From Terriglobales bacterium (GTDB taxonomy: Bacteria; Acidobacteriota; Terriglobia; Terriglobales; Acidobacteriaceae): a stretch of DNA of 64,000 nt. The notes beneath the pieces are model-generated. The model made no database searches. It was not told the DNA's origin and saw only the letters and a list, made by a program, of their open reading frames with translations. Location: NCBI GenBank assembly GCA_025936825.1, contig JAICSO010000020.1, positions 1-64,000 of the forward strand. The letters run 5' to 3'. How positions within the stretch are numbered: position 1 is the first letter of the stretch; every line of letters begins with the position of its first letter. This document shows positions 36,021-53,818 of the stretch, piece by piece. The position numbers were made by a program, and so were the translations under genes.

Positions 36021-39000
36021 TTAACGTCTTCGAAGCACAACAGTGGAAAGGCGTTTCTGTAGCATCGGTATTTTCACTTCATCGCTGTCAGTGCTTTCAA
36101 ACCTCCCAACGACCTTTTCGTTTTCGTCAACTTCGTACTTCCCCGACGGCAATCCTCGGATCATCAGTGTTGTTTTATGCTGGTCGCCGGAACGGTTTTC
36201 AACCTTGAATGTGATTTGGTTGAGATAGTTGGAGAACACGATCGGCTGTTCCTTGGCGAAGCCGTCGCGATCGAGGGCCATCTGAAGGCGGGTCCCGCCG
36301 CGAAGAATATCAAACCGGTCGCGTAAGCCGTCGCGCGGAATCACCGAGATCGCGCCGGCGGATGGCTTCAGTTCGCCGCCATACGCGTAGAGTCCAAAGA
36401 TTGGGTCGTCACTTACCACGGTTGCTGCAGTTCGTAGCGCGCCACTAAACCCCAGATCAATCTCGCCCGAGTACCACCAGGAGCCGCGTCCCATTTCCTT
36501 ATTGCCGAGCCACGCGCGTCCCCATGGTCGCGGCTCAAATCCGCCGCCTGCGGCGCCATCGTTTTCTTTGCCGGGAAACCAATAACCGTAATTCGATTCA
36601 GGACTGCCGGAATTCAGCAGCGCCCAGGAACTCAGATATGACTGGTAGCCGAGGCGTAAGTAGTCGATTGGATCTTTCGCGAAATTGAGGGCATAGTCTT
36701 CCACCGCCCATCCGCCCATCTGTGACATGTAGCTGAGCGTGTAGGCGGTGTTGCCGCTGGCACGATAGTCGCTGCCGAGCCAGTAATATGCGGGTTCGGT
36801 GCCCCGGGCCGCAACATTCAACCGCATCTGCTCTTCCAGGAATTCGTTGGCGTCCGCCGGTATCACCGCTTTGCGAAACTCTGTTGCGGATGGATCTTGT
36901 AGTCGTGCAACCGCGTACTTCGCCAAAGCATGAGTGGATTCGAATCCCGTTGAATCGAACGGATACTCCGACTGGAACAAATCCGGTTTCTTGTTGATGA
37001 AGAACTCCGCCTTCTTCTCCCAATGCTCGCGGAGTTTGTCGGCATCGTCCTTGCGCCCGTTCTGTTCGAGTGCACGGATCAGGTCTGGAATTACAAGTTC
37101 GTTGTAGGTACCCGTTTCATACGCCGACCACTTCACGATCTCCATCGGGACAGTGAAGAATGCCATAGCGGTGCCGTACGCGCGCTGCAGATATCCGGCG
37201 GCATCAAGGTGATGCACCATGCCCGGATAGTCCTTCGCGATCAAGTACATGTTGTAGTAGAGCAGGATGACGTGTGGATAGTCGTAAATGCGCCACAAGT
37301 GCTTCTTCCCTCGTTCGTTGTCCTGCGGGCTCTCGCGGTTCACCTTCCAGTTGGGGATGCCGTAAATCCCGTATGGATACGGCTCTTTGTCGGTCTGCTG
37401 CAATCCTCCCCAGACGTAATGCTGAATATAGTTCTCGACGGACGCGATCTCGTCCCGCTCAGGAAAGAAAACGTTTTTGGCCGCTAGATACGGCGCTTTG
37501 CCCAGCGCCGGATCGTCACACGCCACCGCGTACGACTGCAGGCCGTCGAGATCGTCGGGACTGCGCAGCACTTGATGCTTCATGTCCCACTGCGAGTAAA
37601 GGCCGTTGTACCAGCGCTTGGGATCATTCCATTGTTCGTGCGTCACTAGGAAATGGGCGCGCTTCTTGTAAAGGGTTTCAAGCGGGTCGGTAACAAAGAA
37701 GTCAAGTGGCAGGTATTTGCCGTTGCCGTAGTTCACCTTGAGCATGTTCTCGCCCAGGCGAGCAAACTTTACGGAGTAGATGTAAGTGTCGCCGCTTTTC
37801 TTGCTCACAAGCTTGATTGCTGTGCTCTCGGGGTGCTCGGGTGCAATCTCGCTAATGTGATTCTTCGTCCGCACGGAAAACATTGTCGGGAGATCCGTTG
37901 GCACGGTCATGCCGGGGACGACATGGACATCGAACTCACCTTCTTCGTACAAGACATCACGAACTGCCGCGTAGTCCTTGGCCCAGCGAAATTTGAAACT
38001 GTAGGCCAATGAGTCGCCCGGCTTCCCTTTGGGCGCCAGCGTGGCCTTGGTATTCGTAAGCCGCCACTTACCGCCCTTTTTAGCGAGTTCCTCGCCGCGG
38101 CCCGCGGAATGAACGTAAGCCGTGTAGCTGCGGTCTTCTTCCTGGTCGAAGTATTCGAGATGCGTATTTTGCGGCACCATGACAAGGTAAGGTCCGACGC
38201 CATTGCACCGCATCCAGAAAATGTAGGAGCCGTCTCCGCCGATAAAGCTGTGGCGAATCACGCGCTTGGTGTAGGTCTCCGTTTTGTCCGGAACATAATC
38301 AGTGTTAAATGGCAAAGCTACGCCAAGATCTCCGATTTCGATCGCCTGCGATGCCTGGTTGCGAACGTCAATCACCCAAACGAGTGAATCCCCCTCCAGT
38401 CGAAAACTTCCAGTGGTCGCAATCTCTGCGACCGGTGCGACTTCCTTCCCCTTGTCCGTGTTTACTCGCCATTCGTAAATCGCCGAAGTCGCATCCTTAG
38501 GAAGCTGCGCCACCAGCCGCAAACGCTCCGTTGTAACTGGTTCGAAGGTCACATGGTTGAAGCGATCCGCGGCAATTCCATACGAATCAGACGCGTGCAC
38601 ATCCCTCCACTGCTCGCCGTCTTTGTACTGGATCTTCCACGAAGCCGGCAGGTCCCATTTGTAGTCTTCGTAGTTGCCGATCGCCCAGTAGACCTCGACC
38701 GATGACACCTGCTTCGCGGCGCCGAAGTTGTACTCGACCCACTCCTCAGTCCCGTGATGATCGCCCCAAGCAAAAAATGGAATGTTCTGATCACGCGAAC
38801 TCTTCGGCTCAATCTGATCGTTGAGCGCATTCGTGCCCCAAGGTCCTATCGATGAATTGGACTTACTCGCGGTCGCAATCGTCGGGATGGCGCGGCCGAT
38901 GTTGTATTGGATTCCTGAGGGACTCGGTGCTGCTCCGGTTGCGCTATCGACCTGCTGCCACGCGGCACCTGCTGTCCGATATCGGACTACTACATCGCCC

Positions 39001-39167
39001 AGCGCTCGCCCGCCGAGAATGTAGTCTGTGTCATAAACATCCTTCGTGTGCTTCAGGCTGCTCAAACCATTGGCGGAAAGCTGGAGCTGAAACTGGTCAT
39101 TGGCGAGCTGCTGCGCGCACGCCAGGCCGGAAGAGAGCAGGAAAAACGAGAGTATAAGTCTGCGCAA
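36021..39167 (-). CDS. Large secreted DUF5695-like protein, putative glycosidase
   Basis: 1048 residues from a TTG at 39167 (GAGGTG 6 bases upstream; a GTG at 39176 is possible). Sec signal (RRLILSFFLLSSGLACAQ). The first 250 residues are beta-rich and include a discoidin-like piece (EEWVEYNFGAAKQVSSVEVYWAI); the central and C-terminal parts look like an (alpha/alpha)6 barrel with many aromatic and acidic residues (HEQWNDPKRWYNGLYSQWD, YVWGGLQQTDKEPYPYGIYGIPNW, GWAVEDYALNFAKDPIDY). This matches DUF5695-type proteins, often found among polysaccharide-degrading genes. It is the last gene of the hydroxyproline/glycan operon, 30 bases after the GH31 gene. Activity is unknown. Confidence 0.65.
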   Translation of the reverse strand: MRRLILSFFLLSSGLACAQQLANDQFQLQLSANGLSSLKHTKDVYDTDYILGGRALGDVVVRYRTAGAAWQQVDSATGAAPSPSGIQYNIGRAIPTIATASKSNSSIGPWGTNALNDQIEPKSSRDQNIPFFAWGDHHGTEEWVEYNFGAAKQVSSVEVYWAIGNYEDYKWDLPASWKIQYKDGEQWRDVHASDSYGIAADRFNHVTFEPVTTERLRLVAQLPKDATSAIYEWRVNTDKGKEVAPVAEIATTGSFRLEGDSLVWVIDVRNQASQAIEIGDLGVALPFNTDYVPDKTETYTKRVIRHSFIGGDGSYIFWMRCNGVGPYLVMVPQNTHLEYFDQEEDRSYTAYVHSAGRGEELAKKGGKWRLTNTKATLAPKGKPGDSLAYSFKFRWAKDYAAVRDVLYEEGEFDVHVVPGMTVPTDLPTMFSVRTKNHISEIAPEHPESTAIKLVSKKSGDTYIYSVKFARLGENMLKVNYGNGKYLPLDFFVTDPLETLYKKRAHFLVTHEQWNDPKRWYNGLYSQWDMKHQVLRSPDDLDGLQSYAVACDDPALGKAPYLAAKNVFFPERDEIASVENYIQHYVWGGLQQTDKEPYPYGIYGIPNWKVNRESPQDNERGKKHLWRIYDYPHVILLYYNMYLIAKDYPGMVHHLDAAGYLQRAYGTAMAFFTVPMEIVKWSAYETGTYNELVIPDLIRALEQNGRKDDADKLREHWEKKAEFFINKKPDLFQSEYPFDSTGFESTHALAKYAVARLQDPSATEFRKAVIPADANEFLEEQMRLNVAARGTEPAYYWLGSDYRASGNTAYTLSYMSQMGGWAVEDYALNFAKDPIDYLRLGYQSYLSSWALLNSGSPESNYGYWFPGKENDGAAGGGFEPRPWGRAWLGNKEMGRGSWWYSGEIDLGFSGALRTAATVVSDDPIFGLYAYGGELKPSAGAISVIPRDGLRDRFDILRGGTRLQMALDRDGFAKEQPIVFSNYLNQITFKVENRSGDQHKTTLMIRGLPSGKYEVDENEKVVGRFESTDSDEVKIPMLQKRLSTVVLRRR

Positions 39168-39197
39168 CGTGTGCACCTCGGCGGCTTGTCCGTTCGA

Positions 39198-41435
39198 TCA
39201 GAAATGGGCTTCGAGCGGATGTCCGTTGAATTCGACTTCTTTCTGCTTTTCCGCGACTTTGATCTGCATAGCACGCCGCAGCGGTGCAAGCATCTTAGAA
39301 CCGATCGCCAGCTTCATTCGTAGTATGCGTTGTGCATCGTTCCACGACATTTCGATGCCCATCCACTCGCCGCGACGGTGGTTGAAACTTCGACCATCAT
39401 CTTCATACAGCGTGAAACCTCCATCCGCTCCGGGATACACCTGCACTGTAAGTGGTTCATCCGATTTTTCTTCCACGTACTGCTTCACCGGCCCGAGCGG
39501 GAGAACCGCGCCCGCACGAACATAGAGCGGCATGGTTTCTAGGTCTACCGGCCTCGTGACTTCGCGCCCACCTTCCACGCGCTCATTAGTCCAGAAGTCG
39601 TACCAGGTTCCACGCGGAAGATAAATGTTGCGAGAAGTCGCTCCCGGCTCCACCACCGGCGCGACCAGGACATCGCGTCCCCACAGGAATTCGTCGTTGC
39701 GGCTCACTGCCTTCGGATCATCGGAATAGTGCAACCAGAGACCACGCATCACCGGCATTCCAGTCTGTGTGCACTCGCGAACCGCGCTGTAGATGTACGG
39801 CAGCATGCGATATCGCAGCTCGAGATATTTCCGGCAAATCGGTTCGACCTGCGTATTGTGCAGTTGCGATGGATCGGGGATCGCCGCGCCGTTGTAATTG
39901 TTAATCTCAACCGGGCCGGGATCGCCGGTGTTCCAGCCCCACGGAAGACGCAGCTTCCATGTGCGACCGTGGCAGCGGAACAACGTGCAGAACGCGCCGA
40001 ACTGAAACCACCGCAGATAGAGCTCAGCCGTGAATTCCTTGGTCGGAACGAAGCCGCCGATGTCCGTGCCCCAGTATGGAATCCCACTCAACCCCGTGTT
40101 GATCGCAATCGGAATGTGAGTGCGCAGCGTTTCCCATGTGGAATACACATCGCCCGACCACAGAAACGATCCATATCGCTGCATCCCCGCGTAACCATTG
40201 CGATGCAGTGCGTACGGACGTTCATTCGGACGATCCAGTTGTGGCCCTTCCCAGTACATGCGGTTGCGCACCAGGCGCGAAGGGATATCGAGCGGATCGC
40301 CTTCATCCGGCCACCACCCATCGACGCCCATCGCAAAATCTTCGCGGTGCGCATTCCAGTTGCACTTCGCATCTGGGGACTTCGACGATGACTCCGGGCA
40401 CGTCACGCCATCGTGAACGGTGCCATGCAGTTCGTCGGTCATGATGACGGAATGCAGCACCACCTTGAAATGATCTTTGTGGAATTGCTCGATCATCTCT
40501 TTGGGATCGGGAAAGACCTTCTGGTTCCACGCGAAGGATCCATTGTCCGTGTTCCACCCCGATGGGCAGAATCCCGTTCCTAAGTAAATCAGCGCGTCGC
40601 ACGGAAGTTTCTTTTCGCGAAACGTTGTCGCTTCCTCGAGCACCTCTTCCCTACTCACGAGCGTGCGATGCGACTGCTGATATCCCAGGCTCCACAAAGG
40701 CGGGAGTTCAGGGTGCCCAGTCAACCGCGCATATTCGCCCATGATCACAGCGGGTTCTCGCGATGCGATGAAGAAGAGTTCAATCGGTAGAACCTTGTCG
40801 GATTCCTTCGGCTGAAATTTGCTTTCTGGGCCAGTAAAGTCGAACATCCCATACGGCTGGTGAAAAAACATGGCCCAGCCCGCCGTGCTGATGATCCAGG
40901 GAATGGGGACACGCCCACCATGAGTGCCGAGCTTGTAGCCGCCCTGGCCACTTTTCATCGGATCGACGGAGCCACGCCGATCGAATTGCACGCCACCCTC
41001 GCCGAGTCCGAGCAGCGGAGATTCTCCAGTTTTAAAGCCAATCTCCGCTGTTTTCTGATCGATGGTGATGCACTGGATCTCCGTTCCTGTCTTGTCGAGG
41101 ATCGTGAGAGCAAGCGGATCAAAGCTGACTTTCATCTTCAGTTCTCCGCAATTTACGGTCGCGGGTTTCGCGTCGCGGATCACAGCAGCAGGCGGGCCCC
41201 AGTCGGACTTTACGAGTGAACCGTCGTCCGCAACGGAAGCAACGCTGCTGGATTGAATCGGCAGCACCGCCACTCGAACGGTGTACGCGCTTATCGAGGT
41301 GATTTGCAGCTCAACCCGCTGTCCCGCTATCTCCAGCGACGACGAGTCTCCTCTCGCCGCGCGCGGCAGCATCGTCGCAGCGGAGGCGGCCGCAATCGTT
41401 TTCATGGCTTGGCGCCGATTGAATTTGCCAGTCAT
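39198..41435 (-). CDS. Tat-exported GH31 glycoside hydrolase
   Basis: 745 residues from the ATG at 41435. A twin-arginine-like signal (FNRRQAMKTIAAASAATMLP) leads to a beta-sandwich and a (beta/alpha)8 barrel of family GH31. The nucleophile region reads MGVDGWWPDEGDPL, and the following barrel strand FLWSGDVYSTWETLRTHIPIAINTGLSGIPYWGTDIGGF holds the acid/base Asp. GH31 enzymes remove alpha-linked glucose, xylose or galactose by retention. It follows the dipeptidyl peptidase gene by 10 bases, so the two are translationally linked. Which alpha-sugar is cut cannot be told here. Confidence 0.88.
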   Translation of the reverse strand: MTGKFNRRQAMKTIAAASAATMLPRAARGDSSSLEIAGQRVELQITSISAYTVRVAVLPIQSSSVASVADDGSLVKSDWGPPAAVIRDAKPATVNCGELKMKVSFDPLALTILDKTGTEIQCITIDQKTAEIGFKTGESPLLGLGEGGVQFDRRGSVDPMKSGQGGYKLGTHGGRVPIPWIISTAGWAMFFHQPYGMFDFTGPESKFQPKESDKVLPIELFFIASREPAVIMGEYARLTGHPELPPLWSLGYQQSHRTLVSREEVLEEATTFREKKLPCDALIYLGTGFCPSGWNTDNGSFAWNQKVFPDPKEMIEQFHKDHFKVVLHSVIMTDELHGTVHDGVTCPESSSKSPDAKCNWNAHREDFAMGVDGWWPDEGDPLDIPSRLVRNRMYWEGPQLDRPNERPYALHRNGYAGMQRYGSFLWSGDVYSTWETLRTHIPIAINTGLSGIPYWGTDIGGFVPTKEFTAELYLRWFQFGAFCTLFRCHGRTWKLRLPWGWNTGDPGPVEINNYNGAAIPDPSQLHNTQVEPICRKYLELRYRMLPYIYSAVRECTQTGMPVMRGLWLHYSDDPKAVSRNDEFLWGRDVLVAPVVEPGATSRNIYLPRGTWYDFWTNERVEGGREVTRPVDLETMPLYVRAGAVLPLGPVKQYVEEKSDEPLTVQVYPGADGGFTLYEDDGRSFNHRRGEWMGIEMSWNDAQRILRMKLAIGSKMLAPLRRAMQIKVAEKQKEVEFNGHPLEAHF

Positions 41436-41445
41436 AGTCTCAGTG

Positions 41446-43749
41446 TTATCGTCTGCGCTCCCGGCGACCGCGAGAAATGTCCTGCTCCGAGATAACAAAA
41501 TCCTTCGGGGGCGCGACGCCCAGCAGGTACTGCACGAAATAATCCCATCGCCTCCGGACCAGGTACGCTGCGTGCGGTCCGCTTTCGCCGTGATACATAT
41601 TGGGCACGAACAGCATGTCGAAGTTCTTGTTCGCCTTCATAAGCGCATCCGCGAAGCGCATGGTTTCTACGGGATGCACGTTGTCGTCGATATCCCCATG
41701 CACCAGCAGCAAGTGACCTTTTAACTTGTCGGCCATGGTGACATTCGATTGCGCGGCGTAGTCGTCCTGCACGGGATATCCCTGGTACAACTCGTTCCAC
41801 CAGGCCTTGTCGAGCCGAGCGTCGTGATCGCCCGAAATCGAAACGCAAACCTTGTAGAAATCGGGGAACACAAGCATGGCGTGCGCCGCGCCATACCCAC
41901 CCGCAGAGGTTCCGAAAATTCCGACGCGATCAATGTCCATGTACGGGAATTTCGCGGCCATCTGCTTGATCATGGCCACGTGATCTTCAAATGAGCCGCC
42001 CAGATTTCGGTAGGAAAAGTGATGAAATGCCCGTGAACGGCCAGTCGTGCCGCGGCCATCTACCATTACGACCACGAAGCCCAGTTCGGCGACGTTCTGC
42101 AGCCACAAGGTCCCGCCAAACGTCTTGGGGACAAAGAAGTCCTGCGGCCCGGTGTAAACGTGCTCGATGATCGGATATTTCTTGGTGGCGTCAAAATTCG
42201 AAGGCTTCCAGATCAGACCATACAAATCAGTGTTTCCATCCGCCGCTTTGCCTTGAAACGGCTCCGGAAATTTCCAGCCCTTTGCCTGAAGCGCCGCGAC
42301 ATCTGTCTTCTCCAGCACCCGGACTTCGGAACCATCTTTTGTTCGTCGCAACACCGCCACTGACGGCAGATTCGGCCGGGAATAGTTGTCGACAAAATAC
42401 GATCCATCAGGCGAAACGCTCACCGAGTGGTTTGCATTCTCCGGCGTCAGCGGCGCCAAGCCTTTGCCGTCAAACCCAACAACGTAGAGATGAGTTTGGT
42501 ACGGGTCTTCGCCCTTCTCACGACCACCGCCCAGGAAGTAAACGCGGCGGGCCTTCTCGTCCACGAACTCGATCTGCCGCGTAACCCAGGCACCCTGCGT
42601 GATTTGGTTTTCAAGTTTGCCGTTCTTGTCGTAAAGATAAAGATGGTTCCAGCCGTCGCGCTCGGAGGCCAGGATCAGCTCACCCGTGGCTTCCACGTAG
42701 CGGTAAGACGTTTCTCCGGGATCAACGTAGTCTTTGCCCTCCTCGCGCAGGAGCACCTTTTGCTCGCCGGTTTCTGGATCGACGAGTCGAAACTCTTTCG
42801 CTTTATGGCCGCGCTCGTCGTAATCGTAGCGGATTGTTTTCCCATCTGGAGACCAGTCAAACCCGGGCGCATCTTGGAATGGAAGTTCGAGGGGCGCCGT
42901 TTTCACATTAATGCGTTTTTCCGATCGCAAATCAAAGATGATCGGCTGCGCTTTCGGTAAGACCTCACCCGGCAACGGATAGACAACCGTGTATGCTCGC
43001 GGCCTCAATTGATCATCAGGGACAAACTGCAGGCTGGTGAATCGTCCCGCATTCCGCGAATCGATACGGGAGGTAATTAGTTTCGTTGAATCCGGTGACC
43101 AGAAAACGCCCGCCGGCTGCTTCACGTCTTCAGTTTTCTGCTCCACTAATAATCGGAGCGGTGGCAACGGCGTGGCATAGTCCCAACCGGCAACTCCGTC
43201 TTGTGTCAGTTGGACCGAAGTGCTGGTCGAGAGATTGCGAACGTAGAGATTGTGATCTTTGACGTACGCTGTCCACTTCTTGTCCGGGGACTGCGCCTCG
43301 TCCGGTTTCGGCGCAGGCTCGCTCGTGCATTTGTAATCGCTGAGAGCGCACGTCCAGCGCGCATCTTCGAAATTAAAGTGAATGGAATTGGCGTCGTCGC
43401 TGAACTCGATGTCGTCGAAAGGCAGGTCTGTCGCACTTGCTTCGCGTTTGGTCGCACCTGCCAGAGCAGCTGCGAGTTTCGCGTGATCAAACGCCGGCCC
43501 TGCTGTGTTGTGCTCGGCATCAACGACAATGAACTCGCTTCCGGCGGGGCTGACCTTGTGGTACCAAAAACGATTTGTTTTATCGATCCAGTGCGCAGAG
43601 ACGTCGGCGACATAGACTGAGTGCCGCAGATTCCCGGGCAAGAAGGCTCGCGCGCGTTCGTAGTCGGCACGAGTGCCTTGGGCAAACGCCGCTGGAACGC
43701 AAAACAACACCGCAAGAATTAGAAGGAGTGCACCTGCCCTTTTTGTCAT
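41446..43749 (-). CDS. Secreted dipeptidyl-peptidase IV-type S9 peptidase
   Basis: 767 residues. Sec signal (MTKRAGALLLILAVLFCVPA). Residues about 90-510 form the DPP-IV N-terminal propeller (KKWTAYVKDHNLYVRNLST, PDSTKLITSRIDSRN, GFDWSPDGKTIRYDYDERG). The C-terminal alpha/beta hydrolase carries the triad S615 (GIFGTSAGGYGAAHAM), D689 (VHGDIDDNVHPVETM) and H720 (NMYHGESG). DPP-IV-type enzymes release Xaa-Pro or Xaa-Hyp dipeptides, which suits a locus that degrades hydroxyproline-rich protein. AGGAG is 4 bases before the ATG. A 162-base gap with a large inverted repeat separates it from the alpha-galactosidase gene upstream. Confidence 0.9.
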   Translation of the reverse strand: MTKRAGALLLILAVLFCVPAAFAQGTRADYERARAFLPGNLRHSVYVADVSAHWIDKTNRFWYHKVSPAGSEFIVVDAEHNTAGPAFDHAKLAAALAGATKREASATDLPFDDIEFSDDANSIHFNFEDARWTCALSDYKCTSEPAPKPDEAQSPDKKWTAYVKDHNLYVRNLSTSTSVQLTQDGVAGWDYATPLPPLRLLVEQKTEDVKQPAGVFWSPDSTKLITSRIDSRNAGRFTSLQFVPDDQLRPRAYTVVYPLPGEVLPKAQPIIFDLRSEKRINVKTAPLELPFQDAPGFDWSPDGKTIRYDYDERGHKAKEFRLVDPETGEQKVLLREEGKDYVDPGETSYRYVEATGELILASERDGWNHLYLYDKNGKLENQITQGAWVTRQIEFVDEKARRVYFLGGGREKGEDPYQTHLYVVGFDGKGLAPLTPENANHSVSVSPDGSYFVDNYSRPNLPSVAVLRRTKDGSEVRVLEKTDVAALQAKGWKFPEPFQGKAADGNTDLYGLIWKPSNFDATKKYPIIEHVYTGPQDFFVPKTFGGTLWLQNVAELGFVVVMVDGRGTTGRSRAFHHFSYRNLGGSFEDHVAMIKQMAAKFPYMDIDRVGIFGTSAGGYGAAHAMLVFPDFYKVCVSISGDHDARLDKAWWNELYQGYPVQDDYAAQSNVTMADKLKGHLLLVHGDIDDNVHPVETMRFADALMKANKNFDMLFVPNMYHGESGPHAAYLVRRRWDYFVQYLLGVAPPKDFVISEQDISRGRRERRR

Positions 43750-43911: not shown

Positions 43912-45066
43912 CTACTTGACCTTGATCCTCACCAGCACCACGCCGTGCGGCGGCACATACGCGCTGTACGAATCCTTAAATGTGCCCACATCTTTTTTTA
44001 GCCACAGATCGCGTACTGTAGCTTCTCCGCGAATGCCAATTTGCGCGAGATTGGCCGTGATCTGCTCGGCGGTGCGCTGCCGGTTAAACAATCCCACGAC
44101 CTTGCTGCCGTCCGCCATCGGCTTCATCCAGACTTCGAAGGGTCCTTCCTGCGCGACACGAAAGCCTTGCTTCCCCAGCGGGTCCTGATCCACCGCGATT
44201 ACTTCACGATTGGTCAGGATTTCAACCGTATACGGTGTCATCCGGGTCAGGTCGTTGCCCATGATCAGCGGCGCCGCAAGCATCGCCCACAGACTGAAGT
44301 GGGTGCGGTACTCGTCTTCGTTCATGCCGCCGTTGCCGACTTCCAGCATGTCAGGATCGTTCCAGTGCCCGGGCCCGGCAAATTTCTCCAGTCCATTCTG
44401 GTTGAATCCGATCTCGGCCATCGAGTTGTAACGATCGGTGATGTCTCCGGTCGTGCGCCACAGGTTTCCGCCCACCGACGGTCCCCACTCCCACACCTTG
44501 TGCCAGCCGTACTGGCAAAGGCTGAGCACGATTGGACGCCCGGTTTTCACCAGCGCATCGTGCATCTTGGTGTAGGCATTCTTCATGTCCTCGAAGCGTT
44601 GCGGCGGCTGTTGGCACCAGTCGTATTTCAGGTAGTCGATTCCCCACTGCGCGTACGTCTGCGCGTCCTGCTCCTCGTGCCCGAGACTTCCTTCGTATCC
44701 TGCACAGGTCTTCGGTCCCGGCCCCGAATAAATGCCGAGTTTCAGTCCCTTGCTGTGGACGTAGTCCGCCAGCGCTTTCATGTCGGGAAATTTTTCGTTG
44801 GGATGCATGACACCGTTCGCGTCGCGCTTGCCTGCCCAGGTGTCGTCAATGTTCAGGTAGATGTAACCGGCGTCGCGCAGTCCGGTGGAAACCAGTGCGT
44901 CAGCCGTGGCGCGAATAGTGGCGTCATCGACCTTCTCCGCGAAGTGGTTCCAACTGTTCCAGCCCATGGGCGGCGTGGCTGCAAGTTTGTTCTGCGCGAC
45001 AACGGCCAGAGTTGATGTTAAAAGACAAACAAAGACCAACTGCTTCGCGACACTCTTCGCGTGCAC
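43912..45066 (-). CDS. Secreted GH27 alpha-galactosidase
   Basis: 384 residues starting at a GTG (AGGAG 6 bases upstream). Sec signal (SVAKQLVFVCLLTSTLAVVA). The GH27 barrel begins TPPMGWNSWNHF; the nucleophile is D149 in YLKYDWC and the acid/base D208 in LWRTTGDI. DDTW (74-77) and HWNDPDMLEVGN are further substrate-loop motifs. The enzyme releases terminal alpha-galactose by retention. It follows the semialdehyde dehydrogenase gene by 48 bases, placing it in the hydroxyproline operon. Extensin serines carry single alpha-galactose residues, a plausible substrate here, though galactomannan or raffinose sugars are the family's usual ones. Confidence 0.92.
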   Translation of the reverse strand: MHAKSVAKQLVFVCLLTSTLAVVAQNKLAATPPMGWNSWNHFAEKVDDATIRATADALVSTGLRDAGYIYLNIDDTWAGKRDANGVMHPNEKFPDMKALADYVHSKGLKLGIYSGPGPKTCAGYEGSLGHEEQDAQTYAQWGIDYLKYDWCQQPPQRFEDMKNAYTKMHDALVKTGRPIVLSLCQYGWHKVWEWGPSVGGNLWRTTGDITDRYNSMAEIGFNQNGLEKFAGPGHWNDPDMLEVGNGGMNEDEYRTHFSLWAMLAAPLIMGNDLTRMTPYTVEILTNREVIAVDQDPLGKQGFRVAQEGPFEVWMKPMADGSKVVGLFNRQRTAEQITANLAQIGIRGEATVRDLWLKKDVGTFKDSYSAYVPPHGVVLVRIKVK

Positions 45067-46737: not shown

Positions 46738-47658
46738 TCATTTCGCCGGCACAGCCCTACCATTCACCAGCTGTGGGCGGGATTGCAGTGCTTCCCTTAT
46801 TGTGCCTTGAACGCGGCTCAGTTTGTCGCCAGTCAGTTCGAGGCGCGGCGGACGTACTCGGGCATTTCCCATCCCCACCTCCGCCTGCACCAGTTTGATG
46901 AGCTGCACAAACTCCGGGACTGTATCCATTCGCAGCAGGGGCAGAAACCAACGATAGATATCGAAGGCTTTCTCGTGCTCGCAATTCCGGCCACTGTTGA
47001 ACAACTCCACCGACTCACGCGGCAGTGCGTTCGCCAGTCCAGCAACCCATCCGATCGCGCCAACACCAATGCCTTCCAGAATCGCGTCGTCGACGCCGAC
47101 GGAAATCTCTAAGCGATCTCCCATCAACGCTCGGATCGCAGCGACGCGTCGCGCGTCTGTGCTGGACTCTTTCACCGATTCCAGATTCGCGTAATCCGCA
47201 GCTAGTTCCTGGATCTGCTCGGGAAGGAAGTCCGTGCCGTAAGCGACGGGATTGTTGTAGAGCATGCAACCGAGCGGCGTAGCTTCCAGCACCGCACTCA
47301 CGTGTGCCTTCATCTCTCGCCAGTCACCTTGATACACGTACGGAGGGAGAACCATCAGCGCATCGCATCCCGCATCTGCCGCGGCTTTTGCCAGAGCAAC
47401 CGCTTCCCCGGTCGACAGCGCCGAGATGGACGCCACGACCGGCGCCCGGCCATGCACCGCCTTCACGCAAGTCCGCAGGATGTTGACCTTTTCCTCGAAA
47501 GACAACGTAGCGCCTTCGCCGAGCGAACCGAGGCACACGATTCCGGTGCAGCCATTGTCGAGCAGCCAGCGGCTGTGTTCCGCCATAAACCCGTAGTCCA
47601 CCTCGAGCTTACGGTCGAAGCAGGTTGTAATCGCAGGCATTACTCCATTCCAATTCAT
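46738..47658 (-). CDS. 1-pyrroline-4-hydroxy-2-carboxylate deaminase (DHDPS/NAL family)
   Basis: 306 residues from the ATG at 47658; a GTG at 47670 overlapping the upstream stop is possible. A dihydrodipicolinate synthase/N-acetylneuraminate lyase barrel with Schiff-base Lys163 (LESVKESSTDARR), Tyr134 (MLYNNPVAYGTD) and the GSLGEGATLSFEEK loop in place of the GTTGE motif. Set between D-hydroxyproline dehydrogenase and semialdehyde dehydrogenase genes, it most likely removes ammonia and water from 1-pyrroline-4-hydroxy-2-carboxylate to give alpha-ketoglutarate semialdehyde. From family alone, other aldolases or dehydratases are possible; the operon decides it. Confidence 0.85.
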   Translation of the reverse strand: MNWNGVMPAITTCFDRKLEVDYGFMAEHSRWLLDNGCTGIVCLGSLGEGATLSFEEKVNILRTCVKAVHGRAPVVASISALSTGEAVALAKAAADAGCDALMVLPPYVYQGDWREMKAHVSAVLEATPLGCMLYNNPVAYGTDFLPEQIQELAADYANLESVKESSTDARRVAAIRALMGDRLEISVGVDDAILEGIGVGAIGWVAGLANALPRESVELFNSGRNCEHEKAFDIYRWFLPLLRMDTVPEFVQLIKLVQAEVGMGNARVRPPRLELTGDKLSRVQGTIREALQSRPQLVNGRAVPAK

Positions 47659-47666
47659 CGCTGCCC

Positions 47667-48953
47667 TCACATGACGAACGTGTGCTCTTTCTCTTCGTGC
47701 GTTTCAGAAATCAAATTTTCTAGTGCGACTGGGAAAATCGGCGGACGCACGGATTCCGGCGTCCATCCCAACAGAAACTGTGTTGCCGGCCCGCAGACGC
47801 GTCCTTGACACGGCCCCATACCACAACGCGTGTGCAGCTTCGCAGCACGCCATGAACGATGCTGTGTCATCTGGCCGTACTTCACATCCTCGCATCGGCA
47901 GACAATCGTTCCCGTGGACGCCAGGCTCTTCAGTTCAGGCCGCAACGCGAATGTTCGGTCGAGCGCCTCTGCAAAGCTGCGCATCTTTCTGCGCGCGCTG
48001 AAAAGACTCTGGGCCTCACCTTCTTTGCCGATCGCAACCAGACCTGCGATTTGCCCTTCGATCAGCGAGAGTTCCACTCCACCGATGCCCGTCGGCTCGC
48101 CTGCGCAAAAGACATTTGGCTGTGATGTCTGCTGAAAGTCATCCACCTGCACATATCCATTCTGCAAACGACATCCCAGCAGGACCGCCAATTCTGTATT
48201 GGGGACAAGATGAAAACCGCACGCCAGATAATCGCAGGCAATCTCCTCGTGCTTTCCACCGCGGCAAAGGACAACCGACTCCACGACTCCGTTTCCCCTC
48301 GCCGCAACCGGCCACGCGTTCGTGATCAGGGGAATGTCTCGCAGTTCTTTGCGCAACCATAGCGCCTGAGCTAACTTGCCTCTCTGCGCGGCAACTTTCA
48401 GTGCGAATTTTGCCAGCGCCGTGCGCGATACTTGCTCGTAAATCGCAACAACCTTCGCGCCATCATTCTTCAGATACGCGGCTACGGCCAGTAGCAAAGG
48501 CCCGGTCCCGGCAATCGCTACTCGCTTCCCGCTTACCGGCAGGCCTGATTTCACCAGCGCCTGCAACGCACCTGCTCCCATCACATTCTGCAGCGTCCAT
48601 CCGGGAAATGGCAGGAATCGTTCACGCGCGCCGGTCGCCAGAATCAGCTTTCCATATTCAATCTGGTACGTGCCGTCGCCGGATTCCGCGCGCAATACGC
48701 CGCTCACCGGCTGATCGAACACTCGCGTCCCCGCACACACCTCGACATCCCAGGCATGCAGCTTTGCCAGCCATGCCGCCGCTTCCGAATTGGACTGTGC
48801 CGTTTCACCGCGCCAAATTTGTCCTCCCAGAGCAGGATTGTCGTCAACAATCCCGACCCGCTTGCCTGATTGTGCTGCTGACACTGCCGCGGCGATTCCC
48901 GCCGGGCCTCCGCCCACGATCAGCACATCGAATTGTTTTCGCGCGCTAACCAT
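47667..48953 (-). CDS. D-hydroxyproline dehydrogenase, FAD/NAD-type alpha subunit (HcnB-like)
   Basis: 428 residues. N-terminal dinucleotide-binding motif VLIVGGGPAGIAAAVSAAQSG, a second one KRVAIAGTGPLLLAVAAYL near 160, ATGARERFLPFPGW, and a C-terminal BFD-like iron-sulfur region with VCRCEDV and CGMGPCQGRVCGP. This is the HcnB-like partner of a membrane-associated amino-acid dehydrogenase. It overlaps the upstream small ferredoxin gene by 8 bases. In hydroxyproline loci such subunits assemble with the small [2Fe-2S] protein and the DAO-type subunit to oxidise cis-4-hydroxy-D-proline and pass electrons on to the respiratory chain. Confidence 0.85.
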   Translation of the reverse strand: MVSARKQFDVLIVGGGPAGIAAAVSAAQSGKRVGIVDDNPALGGQIWRGETAQSNSEAAAWLAKLHAWDVEVCAGTRVFDQPVSGVLRAESGDGTYQIEYGKLILATGARERFLPFPGWTLQNVMGAGALQALVKSGLPVSGKRVAIAGTGPLLLAVAAYLKNDGAKVVAIYEQVSRTALAKFALKVAAQRGKLAQALWLRKELRDIPLITNAWPVAARGNGVVESVVLCRGGKHEEIACDYLACGFHLVPNTELAVLLGCRLQNGYVQVDDFQQTSQPNVFCAGEPTGIGGVELSLIEGQIAGLVAIGKEGEAQSLFSARRKMRSFAEALDRTFALRPELKSLASTGTIVCRCEDVKYGQMTQHRSWRAAKLHTRCGMGPCQGRVCGPATQFLLGWTPESVRPPIFPVALENLISETHEEKEHTFVM

Positions 48954-49191
48954 CGGTCCTTATATCCATGCCTGTCGTGCAAGCTACCTGACAGCTTCGC
49001 CTATGGGCCACGCCATCAACCTCCGCGCGACACTCGTAACAAATGCCTATGCCGCACAACGGACCCCTCGGTTCGCCGCTAACTGAAGTTCGGCAACTAG
49101 CTCCCGCAATCATCATCGCAACGGCGACACTCGATCCCGCTGCCACCGTCACGCGTGTGCCGTTCACCGAAACCGCGATTTGCTCAGACAT
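48946..49191 (-). CDS. D-hydroxyproline dehydrogenase, small [2Fe-2S] subunit (HcnA-like)
   Basis: 81 residues from the ATG at 49191. A compact plant-type ferredoxin fold of the HcnA/SoxA kind: IAVSVNGTRVTVAAGSSVAVAM, then the ligand cysteines in CRTSVSGEPRGPLCGIGICYECRAEV and a last one in RSCQVAC. The start overlaps the upstream DAO gene by 8 bases and its end overlaps the next gene by 8 bases, so the three subunits are made together. It relays electrons between the flavin subunits. The longer open frame upstream lies inside the neighbouring gene and is not used. Confidence 0.88.
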   Translation of the reverse strand: MSEQIAVSVNGTRVTVAAGSSVAVAMMIAGASCRTSVSGEPRGPLCGIGICYECRAEVDGVAHRRSCQVACTTGMDIRTDG

Positions 49192-50317
49192 GGGCGTGCT
49201 CCATTGTCGTCGCCCGAGACGGCAAATATGGCTCGCGTGCGATCTGCGATGCTCTTCCTGAGAGTTGATCGGCCAACAATCGCCCAGTTGCAAGCGATGT
49301 TGTAATTCCTAATCCTTCATGCCCGGTCGCAAGAAACACCGTCGAATCCTCGCCCCACGGCCCGATCAGCGGGAGTTTGTCCGGTGTCGCGGCGCGAAAT
49401 CCGGTCCAAACTCGAATCGCTGAAGTCTGCGACAGTCGAGGCATGTACTCCTGCGCCCGCTGCAACATGCGCCCGAGAATCTCGTGATCCACTTCCTTGT
49501 GCTCCGCTCCGTACTGCCGCGAAGATCCAATGAGCACTTGTCCCGTCCGCCTCGGCTGCACATTGAAGGCAACCGAGTCCGAACTGACAGAATGTGCGCT
49601 CTTCAGATATCCGAGTTCAACCAACTGGTGCTGAATGAAGCCCGGGTAGCGGTCAGTGATCACTAAGTGGCCTTTGCGCTTTTTCACGCTGATGCCGCGG
49701 GTCAGCTCCGGCGCCCACGCTCCCGCAGCATTCACGATCACTCCCGCCGACAACTCACTTCCATCTGCGCGCCGCACACGTCCATTTCCGATCTCAGCCA
49801 CCGGAGCGCCTACCTGCACGGTTGCTCCCAGCGCTTGCGCTTGCTCGATCAAAAACCGCGCTGCACAAGGCGGATACAAGACGCCGTCCTCCGTCACGAG
49901 AAGCCCGCCAGCCATTCCCTTTCGCAGGTTCGGCTCCAGACGCGCCAAATCTTCTGCGCTCAAAATCTGGACCGGCACTCCGCGGCGCTGGTAATAGCTC
50001 GCCTTGCGATGGACCTCCGCCATCTCCTCATCGTCAGCCGCCACCCAGATGGTGCCGCACTGCGTATACTCCACGTCGTCCGGAAGCTCAGGACGAAGCT
50101 GTTGCCACAATTGCTGCGAATAGCGCGTCAACGCAAACTGCGCTTCCGAGTCGTCCATTACGACGATGTGCCCCATACCAGCCGCAGTCGCACCGCCGCC
50201 AATCACGTCGTGGTCGACAACTGCGACGCGCATTTTCTGGCGCGCACACTCCAGCGCACACGCGGCTCCCACAATTCCCGCGCCCATAATGACGACGTCG
50301 TACTTCTCAGCACTCAT
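49184..50317 (-). CDS. D-hydroxyproline dehydrogenase, DAO-type FAD subunit (HcnC-like)
   Basis: 377-residue FAD-dependent amine oxidase of the DAO/GlyOx fold: VVIMGAGIVGAACALECARQ at the N terminus, VIVNAAGAWAPEL near 195, and VWTGFRAATPDKLPLIG and TGHEGLGITTSLATG near the C terminus. It holds the substrate site that oxidises cis-4-hydroxy-D-proline to 1-pyrroline-4-hydroxy-2-carboxylate. Its start overlaps the stop of the epimerase gene (ATGA), whose product is its substrate. The same subunit type occurs in hydrogen cyanide synthase; the neighbours argue for hydroxyproline. Confidence 0.88.
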   Translation of the reverse strand: MSAEKYDVVIMGAGIVGAACALECARQKMRVAVVDHDVIGGGATAAGMGHIVVMDDSEAQFALTRYSQQLWQQLRPELPDDVEYTQCGTIWVAADDEEMAEVHRKASYYQRRGVPVQILSAEDLARLEPNLRKGMAGGLLVTEDGVLYPPCAARFLIEQAQALGATVQVGAPVAEIGNGRVRRADGSELSAGVIVNAAGAWAPELTRGISVKKRKGHLVITDRYPGFIQHQLVELGYLKSAHSVSSDSVAFNVQPRRTGQVLIGSSRQYGAEHKEVDHEILGRMLQRAQEYMPRLSQTSAIRVWTGFRAATPDKLPLIGPWGEDSTVFLATGHEGLGITTSLATGRLLADQLSGRASQIAREPYLPSRATTMEHAHV

Positions 50318-51273
50318 GCGCGAATGCCGTTACAGAACGGATCTCGCGGGTCCAAAATCAGCTCGGCTTCCGAATTCACAAATGCCGATCCGGTGATGCT
50401 CGGATAAATTCGGCCATCCCGCACCGCGACTCTTCCCTCGAACACGCTGCCGACGATGCTCTCCTGGCGCCATACATCGCTCTCGCGCAGCTTGCCGCTT
50501 TCGTGCAGGCATGCCAACTTCGCGCTTGTCCCCGTACCACAAGGCGATCGGTCGTACGCTTTTCCCGGACACAATACAAAATTCTTGCTGTTGACTCCCG
50601 GCAACTTGGAAGGACCAAACAGCTCGATATGGTCGATCTCGTGTCCCTCATCTCCGGTAATTCCTGCGGCATTCAATGCGCATCGGACCGCCCAGGTGAA
50701 TTCGGTCAATGCCTCTACATTTTTCAGCGTCAGTTCGAATCCGTGTTCTTCAACGAGGAAGAACCAATTACCGCCCCACGCAACGTCCCCACGCACCGTG
50801 CCGAACCGTGGGACCTCGACAGCAACTCCCGCCGCCTTGCGATAGCTGGCGACGTTATTTACGGTCACTTTGCCGTTCTCGTGCAAGATCGCGCTCACAA
50901 TACCAACCGGAGTTTCGATTCGATGCTCGCCCGGTGCGATCTCTCTCCTGTGAGCGAGAGAAGCAATCAACCCAATCGTTCCATGACCGCACATTCCGAG
51001 ATAGCCGACGTTATTAAAGAAGATGACGCCGGCGGCGCAGGTGGAGTCACACGGCTCGCACAAAAGGCCACCTACTACTACGTCGGATCCTCGCGGCTCG
51101 TTAACGACCGCGGAGCGGAATTCATCGTGCGCAGTGCGAAATCGCGCCAGCCGTTCACTCAACGCACCTCGTCCCAGATCGGGACCGCCTGCTACTACAA
51201 GTCGCGTTGGCTCTCCGCCGGTGTGCGAATCTACCACTCGCACGCTGCGCACTTCCCGTTCTCGACCGGACAT
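50314..51273 (-). CDS. 4-hydroxyproline 2-epimerase (proline racemase family)
   Basis: 319 residues from the ATG at 51273 (GGGAG six bases upstream). Proline racemase fold with DSHTGGEPTR near the start and both catalytic thiols: Cys95 in LGMCGHGTIG and Cys245 in DRSPCGTGTSA. Having Cys at both sites makes it a true epimerase, not a dehydratase of the Thr/Cys type. It inverts trans-4-hydroxy-L-proline to cis-4-hydroxy-D-proline, the entry step of the pathway. It is the first gene of the ten-gene minus-strand operon, divergent from the permease gene, with a shared control region. Confidence 0.92.
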   Translation of the reverse strand: MSGREREVRSVRVVDSHTGGEPTRLVVAGGPDLGRGALSERLARFRTAHDEFRSAVVNEPRGSDVVVGGLLCEPCDSTCAAGVIFFNNVGYLGMCGHGTIGLIASLAHRREIAPGEHRIETPVGIVSAILHENGKVTVNNVASYRKAAGVAVEVPRFGTVRGDVAWGGNWFFLVEEHGFELTLKNVEALTEFTWAVRCALNAAGITGDEGHEIDHIELFGPSKLPGVNSKNFVLCPGKAYDRSPCGTGTSAKLACLHESGKLRESDVWRQESIVGSVFEGRVAVRDGRIYPSITGSAFVNSEAELILDPRDPFCNGIRA

Positions 51274-51428: not shown

Positions 51429-51510
51429 CCAGTAGTCAAGGCGTATTTACAATTTCACTGCAAAGCCGGAGCCGCACTTGCCCTCATTTCGTGCTGCAGA
51501 ACCTGCCCCA

Positions 51511-53016
51511 ATGACGACTCCCCGCAAGCCCGAGTTCCACCGTGGCCTCGGGCTGTTTGATTCCACGATGCTGGTCGTCGGCGTCATGATCGGCTCCGGC
51601 ATCTTCATAGTGTCAGCCGACATGGCACGCGAGATCGGTAGCCCGGGCTTGCTGCTGGTCGCATGGATCATCGCCGGAGCTCTGACCATCGCTGGTGCGC
51701 TTTGCTACGGCGAATTATCCGCCATGATGCCGCAAGCCGGCGGTATGTACGTCTATCTCCGCGAAGCCTATTCCCCGCTCTGGGGATTCCTCTACGGGTG
51801 GACGCTATTCACGGTCATTCAGACCGGCACGATCGCAGCCGTCGCCGTTGCTTGCGCGCGATTCACCGGAGTGCTTCTTCCCTCGATTTCCGAGGATCAT
51901 TACCTCGTCCGGCCGATTCGAATTTCAACGCACTACGCAGTCTCGCTTTCGACTGCGCAACTGCTCGCGTTGGGAGTGATCCTGCTGCTGACCTTCGCGA
52001 ACACACGTGGACTGCAGTACGGCAAGTGGGTGCAGAACATATTTACTGTCGCCAAGAGCGCTGCGCTTCTGGCACTCATCGGCGCCGGAATTTTTGTTGG
52101 ACGTAACGCTGCCGCTCTGCACGCAAACTTTGGCAATTTCTGGCACGCCCGCGGCATTCAGCCATTGACTGCCACACTTAACGCCACTACTGCATTCGGA
52201 CTCTTTGTCGCCTTGTGCGTGAGCCAGACTGGATCGCTTTTTTCAGCTGACTCCTGGCACAACATTGCCTTCGCCGCCGGAGAAGTTCGCGAACCTGAGA
52301 AGAACGTGACGCGCGCCATGGTGATCGGCACCATTGTGGTGATCTCGCTGTATCTCCTGGCAAACTTGGCGTATCTTTTTACGCTGCCTCTCGAGGCGAT
52401 CCAGCACGCGCCTTCCGATCGTGTTGGCACGGCAACGTTGCAGGCCATCTTCCCTGGCCTGGGCACTGCGCTCATGGCCGTCGCCATCATGATTTCCACT
52501 TTCGGGTGCGTTAATGCGCTGATCCTCGCAGGACCGCGTGCCTACTGTGCAATGGCTCGCCAGGGCCTCTTCTTCCGACTTGCTGGGCGTCTCAATCGCG
52601 CCAGCGTACCGGCGTGGGCACTTTGGATTCAGGGTATCTGGGCGATGGTTCTGGTTTTGCCGCGGACCTTCACCCCCGCAAGCGGCACATGGGGAAACCT
52701 ATACAGCGATCTGCTCGACTACGTGATTTCTGCCGCGCTCATCTTCTATGTTCTGACTGTGGCTGCCGTCTTCCGCTTGCGCCGGAACCGGCCGGACGCT
52801 CCGCGACCATACAGAACCAAGGGCTATCCCTTTGTTCCCGGCGCTTACGTCATCACGGCTACGATAATCCTGGTGGTGCTATTTGCTTATCGCCCAGCCA
52901 CGACGTGGCCAGGCCTGGCGATCGTCGTTGCAGGACTGCCGGTTTACTGGCTGGTGCGTAGGGCCAGCGGCCGTGACGTCATGGCGTCGGACAAGGCAAC
53001 GCCTGTGGTTAAGTGA
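51511..53016 (+). CDS. APC-superfamily amino-acid permease
   Basis: 501 residues from the ATG at 51511, with about 12 transmembrane helices. The first helix holds the APC signature VVGVMIGSGIFIVSADMARE; others include LTIAGALCYGELSAMMPQAGGMYVYL and ALCVSQTGSLFSADSW...EVREPEKNVTRAM. Family members exchange or import amino acids with protons. Its place between the epimerase operon and the GntR gene makes hydroxyproline, or Hyp dipeptides after cleavage, the likely cargo. A TTG at 51478 could add 11 residues, but these look non-coding. Confidence 0.88.
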   Translation: MTTPRKPEFHRGLGLFDSTMLVVGVMIGSGIFIVSADMAREIGSPGLLLVAWIIAGALTIAGALCYGELSAMMPQAGGMYVYLREAYSPLWGFLYGWTLFTVIQTGTIAAVAVACARFTGVLLPSISEDHYLVRPIRISTHYAVSLSTAQLLALGVILLLTFANTRGLQYGKWVQNIFTVAKSAALLALIGAGIFVGRNAAALHANFGNFWHARGIQPLTATLNATTAFGLFVALCVSQTGSLFSADSWHNIAFAAGEVREPEKNVTRAMVIGTIVVISLYLLANLAYLFTLPLEAIQHAPSDRVGTATLQAIFPGLGTALMAVAIMISTFGCVNALILAGPRAYCAMARQGLFFRLAGRLNRASVPAWALWIQGIWAMVLVLPRTFTPASGTWGNLYSDLLDYVISAALIFYVLTVAAVFRLRRNRPDAPRPYRTKGYPFVPGAYVITATIILVVLFAYRPATTWPGLAIVVAGLPVYWLVRRASGRDVMASDKATPVVK

Positions 53017-53128
53017 GCTTGATCCTGAATATCGGTTATTGCACGCTCCGAAAGCTCCGCATATCATCGTTTGTGCATCAGCGTTCTTGTATTTGGATGC
53101 ATTTGTACTCGCACTCAATCTCTGAACC

Positions 53129-53818
53129 ATGAACCTGTCCACCGCACCCGAATCGGCCATCCCCCGGCAGTCGCTCACCTCAGCCGTCGCAGATAAACTG
53201 CGCGAAGAAATCATTCGCGGCACCATTCCTGAGGGCGCGCAACTTCGCCAGGACGCCATCGCCATTCAGTACCAGGTGAGCCGGATTCCCGTGCGCGAGG
53301 CCTTGCGGCAACTCGACGCTGAAGGCTTGATCACGATTGTCCCGAACCGTGGCGCGATTGTGCCGGCGCTCTCGCCCACGGACATCGAAGAACTGTTCAC
53401 CATTCGCGCACTGCTCGAGCCGGAAATTCTAAAGCACTCCATCCCGCGCTTAACCGAGAACGATCTCGAGGAAGCTGCCGTCGTTCTTCGTCGGTACGAA
53501 ACCGAACTGCAGCACGAGGACCACCTCTTTTCCTGGGGACGCCTGAACTGGCAATTCCATTCTCTTCTCTATTCACGTGCCGAGCGGCCGCACTTCATGA
53601 ACATTATTCGCAACGTGAACAACAGCGGGGAACGGTATACCCGCCTGCAACTCTACCTAACGCACGGAATTGCGCGCGCCAACCAGGAGCACCACGAGAT
53701 TCTCGAGTTTTGCCGCCAGCGCGACATCGCCGGCGCCTGCAAACTCCTGCGCCAGCACATCCAGCACGCCGGCCAATCGTTGAAGGAAGCGCTGCAACAG
53801 CGCAGAGCGTCGGACTAG
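53129..53818 (+). CDS. GntR-family (FadR/FCD) transcriptional regulator
   Basis: 229 residues. N-terminal winged helix (SLTSAVADKLREEIIRGTIP, RQDAIAIQYQVSRIPVREALRQLDAEGLI, PNRGAIVPALS) and a C-terminal FCD ligand domain (IEELFTIRALLEPEILKHSI, NWQFHSLLYSRAERPHFMNII, EHHEILEFCRQRDIAGACKLLRQHIQHAG) with Asp/His positions for a metal-bound acid ligand. It follows the permease gene and is probably the local repressor of hydroxyproline catabolism; the TGTATACAATAT boxes are its best candidate sites. No Shine-Dalgarno is obvious before the ATG. Confidence 0.9.
   Translation: MNLSTAPESAIPRQSLTSAVADKLREEIIRGTIPEGAQLRQDAIAIQYQVSRIPVREALRQLDAEGLITIVPNRGAIVPALSPTDIEELFTIRALLEPEILKHSIPRLTENDLEEAAVVLRRYETELQHEDHLFSWGRLNWQFHSLLYSRAERPHFMNIIRNVNNSGERYTRLQLYLTHGIARANQEHHEILEFCRQRDIAGACKLLRQHIQHAGQSLKEALQQRRASD

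Follow-up and report, generated by a model that had tools for sequence, protein, structure and literature searches.

The stretch of DNA considered here (the window) comprises positions 1 to 64,000 of contig JAICSO010000020.1 from a Terriglobales bacterium (assembly GCA_025936825.1, a genome of 6.54 Mb in 141 contigs), a contig that runs on to position 71,309. It harbors a locus composed of two halves: six genes fitting the catabolism of trans-4-hydroxy-L-proline (Hyp), followed by genes for GH27, S9, GH31 and DUF5695-like proteins with export-type N-termini. The two halves are associated beyond chance in genomes of the same family, and the locus probably serves the use of plant hydroxyproline-rich glycoproteins. 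The ten minus-strand genes that an initial annotation had placed between 51273 and 36021 are all present, and the Pfam assignments agree with those given there (Table 1). By open reading frame coordinates, with start codons picked by us, genes one to five overlap by 4, 11, 8 and 4 bases in turn, and gaps of 12, 48, 162, ~13 and 21 bases follow, the ~13-base gap before the GH31 gene becoming an overlap if its frame begins at the first TTG. None of the terminator-like sites listed for the minus strand lies in a gap between the ten genes, by a scan that is powerless here (19 sites found vs 19.4 in shuffled sequences). A promoter-like site (9 of 12 positions) lies upstream of the epimerase gene at 51439-51411, one of 4 such sites found vs 7.6 in shuffles. 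The locus extends past the window: three more relevant genes, for GH146-like, DUF885 and typical DUF5695 proteins, follow on the same contig from position 63983 on.

Table 1. Genes of the locus (window positions; contig positions where so marked).
Feature	Position	Strand	Family evidence and remarks
4-hydroxyproline 2-epimerase (proline racemase family, Cys-Cys type)	50314..51273	-	PF05544 Pro_racemase, E 4.3e-95
D-hydroxyproline dehydrogenase, FAD (DAO) subunit	49184..50317	-	PF01266, E 2.4e-70
D-hydroxyproline dehydrogenase, small [2Fe-2S] subunit	48946..49194	-	PF13510 Fer2_4, E 1.3e-18
D-hydroxyproline dehydrogenase, NAD(P)/FAD-binding subunit	47667..48953	-	PF07992 Pyr_redox_2, E 1.6e-30; PF04324 (BFD) sub-threshold
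DHDPS-type deaminase	46738..47670	-	PF00701, E 2.1e-54
Aldehyde dehydrogenase, presumed 2-oxoglutarate semialdehyde dehydrogenase	45115..46725	-	PF00171 Aldedh, E 1.1e-51
GH27 (melibiase family), Sec-like N-terminus	43912..45066	-	PF16499 Melibiase_2, E 4.5e-71
S9 serine hydrolase, DPP-IV-type fold, Sec-like N-terminus	41446..43749	-	PF00930 DPPIV_N, PF00326 Peptidase_S9
GH31 glycosidase, twin-arginine-type N-terminus (NRRQAMK)	39198..41432	-	PF01055, E 1.7e-60
Divergent DUF5695 protein with F5/8-type domain, Sec-like N-terminus	36021..39176	-	PF18951, E 4.4e-58
Amino-acid permease (APC type), presumed Hyp/short-peptide uptake	51478..53016	+	PF13520 AA_permease_2, E 3e-52
GntR/FCD regulator, presumed regulator of the locus	53129..53818	+	PF00392, PF07729
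Outer-membrane barrel with carboxypeptidase-regulatory-like domain, presumed importer	53910..57974	-	PF25183, E 1.8e-122; PF13620
GH127-Pfam protein, GH146-like beta-L-arabinofuranosidase, 645 residues	63983..65920 (contig)	+	PF07944; the window holds its first bases only (63983..64000)
DUF885 protein, 599 residues	66041-67840 (contig)	+	Assigned through its resemblance to a relative scanned with Pfam; past the window
Typical DUF5695 protein, 940 residues	67851-70673 (contig)	+	Past the window

The epimerase carries the motifs MCGHG and DRSPCGTG, of the Cys-Cys type that the accessible text of PMC4364671 describes for ProR/HypE. Its scores fall slightly short of the cut-offs of curated NCBIfam models (420.5 vs 442 for NF010577, 413.1 vs 450 for a second model). 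The NCBIfam models shown for the aldehyde dehydrogenase are all far under cut-off, and its substrate is therefore assigned by context. The families and their adjacency fit the Hyp pathway with a three-subunit dehydrogenase, and the route proposed in the initial annotation for these six genes is kept as a prediction; a deaminase of the DHDPS superfamily is part of that route in the accessible text of PMC4113996. Among 130 genomes sampled from the same family, 39 possess the epimerase. Genes in the related loci were called with an in-house codon-score script, and sequence clusters are named from a Pfam scan of one member each. Within ~10 kb of the epimerase, a survey of the 38 loci other than that of the window, many of them cut by contig ends, reveals the DAO subunit in 34, the Fer2 subunit in 33, the NAD subunit in 32, the DHDPS-type gene in 35 and the aldehyde dehydrogenase in 22. 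Of the 39 neighbourhoods, 9, that of the window among them, contain the sequence cluster of the permease, and 18 contain the cluster of the barrel; the GntR/FCD cluster of the window is found in 5 and a second GntR/FCD cluster in 11.

By our reading of the N-termini, the GH27, S9 and DUF5695-like proteins appear to begin with Sec-type signals and the GH31 protein with a twin-arginine-type signal, and the six Hyp proteins with neither. These calls were made by inspection; the hydropathy of the first 60 residues alone fails to split exported from cytosolic proteins (2.31 for the DAO subunit, 2.19 for DUF5695, 1.37 for GH31).

The S9 protein is composed of a DPP-IV-type propeller and an alpha/beta-hydrolase domain, and its closest solved relative is 2d5l (224 bits). 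Ser, Asp and His, which we take to be the catalytic triad, are present in the alignment with solved DPP-type chains. In DPP-IV, a Glu-Glu pair binds the free N-terminus of the substrate, and GWSYGG is the nucleophile motif. The segment of 5olj that holds DWVYEEEF appears as an insertion relative to a profile of 11 epimerase-linked S9 proteins, from which it is missing; the S9 protein of the window keeps a longer loop in this region, without the Glu-Glu pair. Where 2d5l and 5olj show HGWSYGG and GWSYGG, respectively, the window's protein has GTSAGG. The pattern G[TV]SAG[GA] is found in 12 of the 13 epimerase-near S9 proteins that reach the motif region (a count that excludes two proteins cut short and the split gene of genome G119), the thirteenth, from G059 and 25% identical, having GLSYGG. 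Membership in the DPP-IV (S9B) group was considered for the S9 protein and not accepted, as the Glu-Glu segment is absent from the linked family and GTSAGG replaces GWSYGG. On the same grounds, the release of Hyp dipeptides by a DPP-IV step, as put forward in the initial annotation, is unsupported. We would guess that the S9 protein is an endo- or oligopeptidase whose targets are peptides freed of some or all of their sugars.

The GH27 protein possesses the catalytic aspartate motifs YLKYDWC and WNDPDM. Its closest solved structures are the alpha-galactosidases 6f4c and 1uas, and the solved chains it matches are alpha-galactosidases, alpha-N-acetylgalactosaminidases or beta-L-arabinopyranosidases. 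The best solved matches of the GH31 protein are a GH31 "candidate alpha-glycosidase" and alpha-xylosidases. The 645-residue protein that begins at the window's end matches 5opj with 330 bits, 8k7y with 188 bits and 3wkw, the GH127 HypBA1 entry, with 42 bits, the enzymes behind these entries being in part those we presume. It is termed GH146-like because it is near the first two and far from GH127 HypBA1. It displays Glu-x-Cys (TEDC) and Cys-Cys (WCC) motifs; in the accessible text of PMC10850190, the residues named as Zn-binding or catalytic in GH146 are E723, C725, C804 and C805. According to the same source, the GH146 enzymes XeHypBA1 and Bll4HypBA1 act on Araf-beta1-Hyp, taking arabinose directly off Hyp. 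The DUF885 protein encoded between the GH146-like and typical DUF5695 genes has an HEGIPGHH motif and is possibly a metallopeptidase of Hyp peptides. Two DUF885 clusters (21 and 24) also occur near the epimerase in other genomes.

Two DUF5695 proteins belong to the locus. The one inside the window is a divergent member, 22-25% identical to typical ones, and its structural model is too poor for a search (pLDDT 56, pTM 0.51). The typical member past the window was modelled with AlphaFold2 from 17 sequences (pLDDT 68, pTM 0.73), and the best Foldseek match of this model is BACCELL_00875 of Bacteroides cellulosilyticus (5no8, E 1.1e-22). With VIA-align 2, 5no8 reaches a Z of 20.9 (4.5 A over 547 residues), the next different protein a Z of 14.8. 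When a DUF5695 profile is run against the PDB sequences, 5no8 (E 1.4e-13) is alone in reaching an E of 1 or better. BACCELL_00875 is a PL27 L-rhamnose-alpha-1,4-D-glucuronate lyase that frees rhamnose from gum arabic, as reported in the accessible text of PMC8377490. Sequence profile and model agree that typical DUF5695 is a remote relative of PL27, sharing the beta-sandwich plus (alpha/alpha)6 barrel, although with an identity of 13-14%. The 17 DUF5695 sequences share invariant charged or polar residues, among them R570, Y574, H576, E672, D676, E681 and E735. We class DUF5695 as an unassigned, putatively carbohydrate-active family related to PL27.

The linkage of the two halves was evaluated against a background in which all copies of a family in the 39 epimerase-positive genomes were placed relative to the epimerase, with a radius of 25 kb and the window's genome included unless said otherwise. 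Among the closer S9 homologues, 16 of 29 copies, each fragment being counted as one, are linked (16 of 22 genomes) where 0.29 are expected; these genomes span twelve genera, and nine of the 16 copies lie within 10 kb of the epimerase. Four further S9 copies belong to a more distant class, and none of them lies within 25 kb. GH146-like genes (GH127-Pfam at 364 bits or more) are linked in 14 of 27 copies and 13 of 25 genomes (0.29 expected), and the other GH127-Pfam genes, which serve as an internal control, in 4 of 58 (0.62 expected). Typical DUF5695 genes are linked in 10 of 16 cases (0.16 expected), window-like ones in 2 of 5 (0.04 expected), and GH27 genes in 7 of 81 copies (0.87 expected). 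Leaving out the window's genome, the linked fractions are 15/28 for S9, 13/26 for GH146-like, 9/15 for DUF5695 and 6/79 for GH27. Furthermore, DUF5695 is present in 17 of the 39 epimerase-positive genomes vs 2 of the 91 epimerase-negative ones, two draws of 130 being taken as one set. The hydrolase half and the Hyp half are thus associated beyond chance in this family. GH43 genes occur near the epimerase in 4 neighbourhoods and GH39-type genes in 3, and alpha-L-arabinofuranosidase genes are found in some loci.

The initial annotation had named a gene order unique to this genome as refuting its proposal, and here the outcome is mixed. The exact succession core-GH27-S9-GH31-DUF5695 is unseen in the 38 other epimerase loci and in the best 80 DUF5695 maps described below; partial orders recur, with core-S9-GH31 in G126 (same genus as the window's genome), core-GH27-DUF5695 in G117 and G066, and core-DUF885-unknown-S9-DUF5695 in G102.

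Beyond the family, a contig scan with the DUF5695 alignment yielded at least 584 confirmed stretches, the best 80 of which were analysed (1.43 Mb of DNA; phylum labels assigned by us, seven loci being left without label). The epimerase is present in 12 of these 80 loci (5 in Acidobacteria, 4 in Bacteroidota, 2 in Verrucomicrobia, 1 in an unclassified metagenome-assembled genome) vs ~0.3 expected in 1.43 Mb by our estimate of at most one per 5 Mb, and it is accompanied by DHDPS or aldehyde dehydrogenase in 10. The same 80 loci harbor GH127-type genes in 37 cases (38 by the clustering count), S9 in 18, DHDPS in 12 (13 by clustering), aldehyde dehydrogenase in 11, and GH27 and GH31 in 9 each, the numbers for S9, aldehyde dehydrogenase, GH27 and GH31, like the 12 epimerases, being identical in the clustering count. 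Two or more araA/B/D-type genes are found in 7 of the 80, six of which are Gemmatimonadota. The 10 Gemmatimonadota loci comprise an FGGY kinase in 6, a class II aldolase in 6, an SSF symporter in 6, AraA in 4 and an aldose epimerase in 4. In L149, L152, L153, L157, L160 and L165, araA/B/D-type genes stand together with a sugar symporter, and L149, L153, L157 and L165 possess additional DUF5695-family proteins beside or near the first. Among the other loci, GH27, GH43 and DUF5695 genes are grouped in Granulicella mallensis X5P3 (L188), and L174, L178 and L189, from Mucilaginibacter strains, contain Hyp genes. Two further families accompany DUF5695. Cluster c5 (L138:2059-4443 and relatives, ~794 residues) occurs in 14 of the best 80 loci and has no Pfam match at E 1e-5 and no PDB sequence match; in G123, a Pfam-less protein of similar size lies between S9 and GH27 (L033:15772-18189). 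Cluster c8 (L153:19298-20320 and relatives, median 340 residues) occurs in 13 of the 80, none labelled Acidobacteria, with no Pfam match at E 1e-5 and no useful PDB match.

The gene set, the export-type N-termini of the hydrolytic proteins and the recurring association are features of the sequences themselves; all substrates, transport, co-transcription and induction are inferred. In the reading that we consider probable, the locus catabolises plant hydroxyproline-rich glycoproteins, either arabinogalactan proteins, extensins or both. The exported GH27, GH31 and GH146-like enzymes, and perhaps both DUF5695 proteins, would remove sugars, the exported S9 hydrolase and the DUF885 protein would cut the bared peptides, and the outer-membrane barrel and the amino-acid permease would take up the products. 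In the cytosol, Hyp would be epimerised, oxidised, deaminated and finally oxidised to 2-oxoglutarate. Arabinosylated Hyp is expected to yield Hyp and L-arabinose, and downstream routes for both occur beside DUF5695, so that they point to a single class of substrate; this inference is the strongest argument for plant hydroxyproline-rich glycoproteins. Of the proposal of a hydroxyproline-rich glycoprotein locus made in the initial annotation, the association and the plant substrate are thus retained, and the DPP-IV step is not.

The substrate may be narrower. Extensin alone, through its short Hyp-arabinosides and Ser-linked galactose, would be used if arabinogalactan proteins had no role, which we regard as unlikely though worth weighing. 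GH39 is a family used in arabinogalactan degradation, and the GH39-type genes near some epimerase loci count against this restriction. The extensin-only case draws on the GH146 enzymes known to act on Araf-beta1-Hyp (PMC10850190, accessible text) and on the idea of the initial annotation that GH27 could take off Ser-linked alpha-galactose; however, DUF5695 is akin to PL27, reported active on gum arabic in the accessible text of PMC8377490, and GH43, found near some epimerase loci, is used in arabinogalactan degradation according to that of PMC10850190. The PL27 kinship and the GH43 and GH39-type genes suggest arabinogalactan proteins, and GH146 action on Hyp-arabinosides, with a possible removal of Ser-galactose by GH27, may point to extensins as well.

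Several observations weigh against a single glycoprotein locus. Within ~10 kb of the epimerase, only 9 of the 38 other loci harbor S9, 6 DUF5695-like, 5 GH27 and 3 GH31 genes. Six of the 22 genomes with S9 and six of the 16 with typical DUF5695 lack the linkage, some of them for want of contig. GH146-like and DUF5695 genes stand together far from the epimerase in G047 and also in G033, where the epimerase sits at a contig end. The GH27 proteins nearest to that of the window (70%, in G017 and G088) are not near an epimerase, and GH27 is the weakest link in the association. The background covers S9, GH127-Pfam, DUF5695 and GH27 only, and the Poisson figures overstate independence because the genomes share ancestry. 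In 65 of the best 80 DUF5695 loci, the epimerase and DHDPS are both missing from the DNA examined, which is short in many cases. Finally, none of the 25 GH88 family matches in the 17 DUF5695-positive genomes lies within 25 kb of an epimerase or DUF5695 gene on the same contig, and 4 of the 17 genomes have no GH88 match at all (G036 being too fragmented to judge). This lack of linked GH88, a difference from the PL27 system of BACCELL_00875, and the arabinose-route neighbours in Gemmatimonadota disfavour DUF5695 as a plain uronate lyase.

The two halves could also be unrelated, a free-Hyp scavenging operon lying by chance before general plant-polysaccharide enzymes in a saccharolytic genome. The unmatched ten-gene order, the scarcity of GH27 and GH31 near the epimerase and the abundance of GH27 paralogues (81 matches in 34 of the 39 genomes) would agree with this, but it is quite improbable given the linkage of S9, GH146-like and DUF5695 genes far above chance, with S9 across twelve genera, the epimerase beside DUF5695 in other phyla, and the co-occurrence of both across genomes. 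Chance adjacency is rejected for S9, GH146-like and typical DUF5695 by their copy numbers in the 39 genomes, and less strongly for GH27. Collagen is rich in 4-Hyp and carries beta-galactose. Its use, which the initial annotation had offered as an alternative, would have Hyp come from animal collagen or gelatin, S9 cut the peptides and the glycosidases strip Glc-Gal from hydroxylysine; remote relatives of the S9 protein include chains deposited under the name dipeptidyl peptidase, but this reading fits poorly and is very unlikely, since the GH27 matches are of the types listed above and the GH146-like, GH51-type, GH43 and L-arabinose catabolism genes of related loci have no known role on collagen. 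Plant glycoproteins are favoured over it by these linked GH146-like, GH43, GH39 and arabinofuranosidase genes, the L-arabinose genes and the PL27 kinship.

A fuller proposal, which we hold tentatively and at somewhat less than even weight, joins these elements. The locus would represent a cross-phylum class that consumes whole hydroxyproline-rich glycoproteins, glycan and core. DUF5695 would be an unassigned carbohydrate-active family that is related to PL27 but may hydrolyse Hyp-linked arabinose, and the S9 subfamily with altered nucleophile and anchor sites (GTSAGG, no Glu-Glu segment) would accept Hyp peptides, perhaps still glycosylated.

Other genes of the window surround the locus. Between 53910 and 63906, the barrel gene is followed by genes for FG-GAP/ASPIC-UnbV and TPR proteins, and the same types (clusters 5, 11, 17 and 20) recur near the epimerase elsewhere. 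At 33807-35916 on the plus strand, a TetR regulator gene overlaps an apolipoprotein N-acyltransferase-like gene, and both face the end of the locus. On its left side, the window harbors a TPR-CHAT protein (27146-30364) and a Trans_reg_C-TPR regulator (17895-20606) with no evident tie to the locus.

Both kinds of pathway joined in this locus type have been documented separately. The proximal six genes fit the trans-4-hydroxy-L-proline clusters of PMC4113996 (epimerase, cHyp oxidase, Pyr4H2C deaminase and 2-oxoglutarate semialdehyde dehydrogenase); the accessible main text of that paper, however, makes no link to glycosidases ("glycos" occurs 0 times) and contains "peptidase" once, concerning neighbours of trans-3-hydroxyproline dehydratase. 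The HypBA system of Bifidobacterium longum (GH121, GH127, GH146) handles the beta-L-arabinooligosaccharides of hydroxyproline-rich glycoproteins (PMC10850190, accessible text; PMC7263609), its GH127/GH146 beta-L-arabinofuranosidases taking arabinose off Hyp (PMC10850190). The window's locus differs in additionally linking Hyp catabolism, the S9 hydrolase and DUF5695. In Latescibacteria, hydroxyproline-rich glycoprotein degradation was proposed in silico with GH127 acting on extensin (PMC4454575), whereas the accessible main text draws no link to Hyp catabolism and contains "gene cluster" 0 times. A search of titles and abstract openings in the open-access literature found no description of Hyp catabolism joined to the deglycosylation of hydroxyproline-rich glycoproteins; most subscription literature lies outside this search, and its silence does not prove that none exists.

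In plants, arabinogalactan proteins and extensins occur widely, both in cell walls and in exudates. The degradation systems of the papers cited above, as far as their accessible text goes, deal with the sugars of these glycoproteins. A locus that also burns Hyp would, if the proposed reading is true, explain the fate of the protein core. It would also serve as a genetic marker for glycoprotein-eating bacteria in several phyla, and DUF5695 (found in 19 of the 130 genomes of this family) and the unusual S9 subfamily would gain a first substrate to try.

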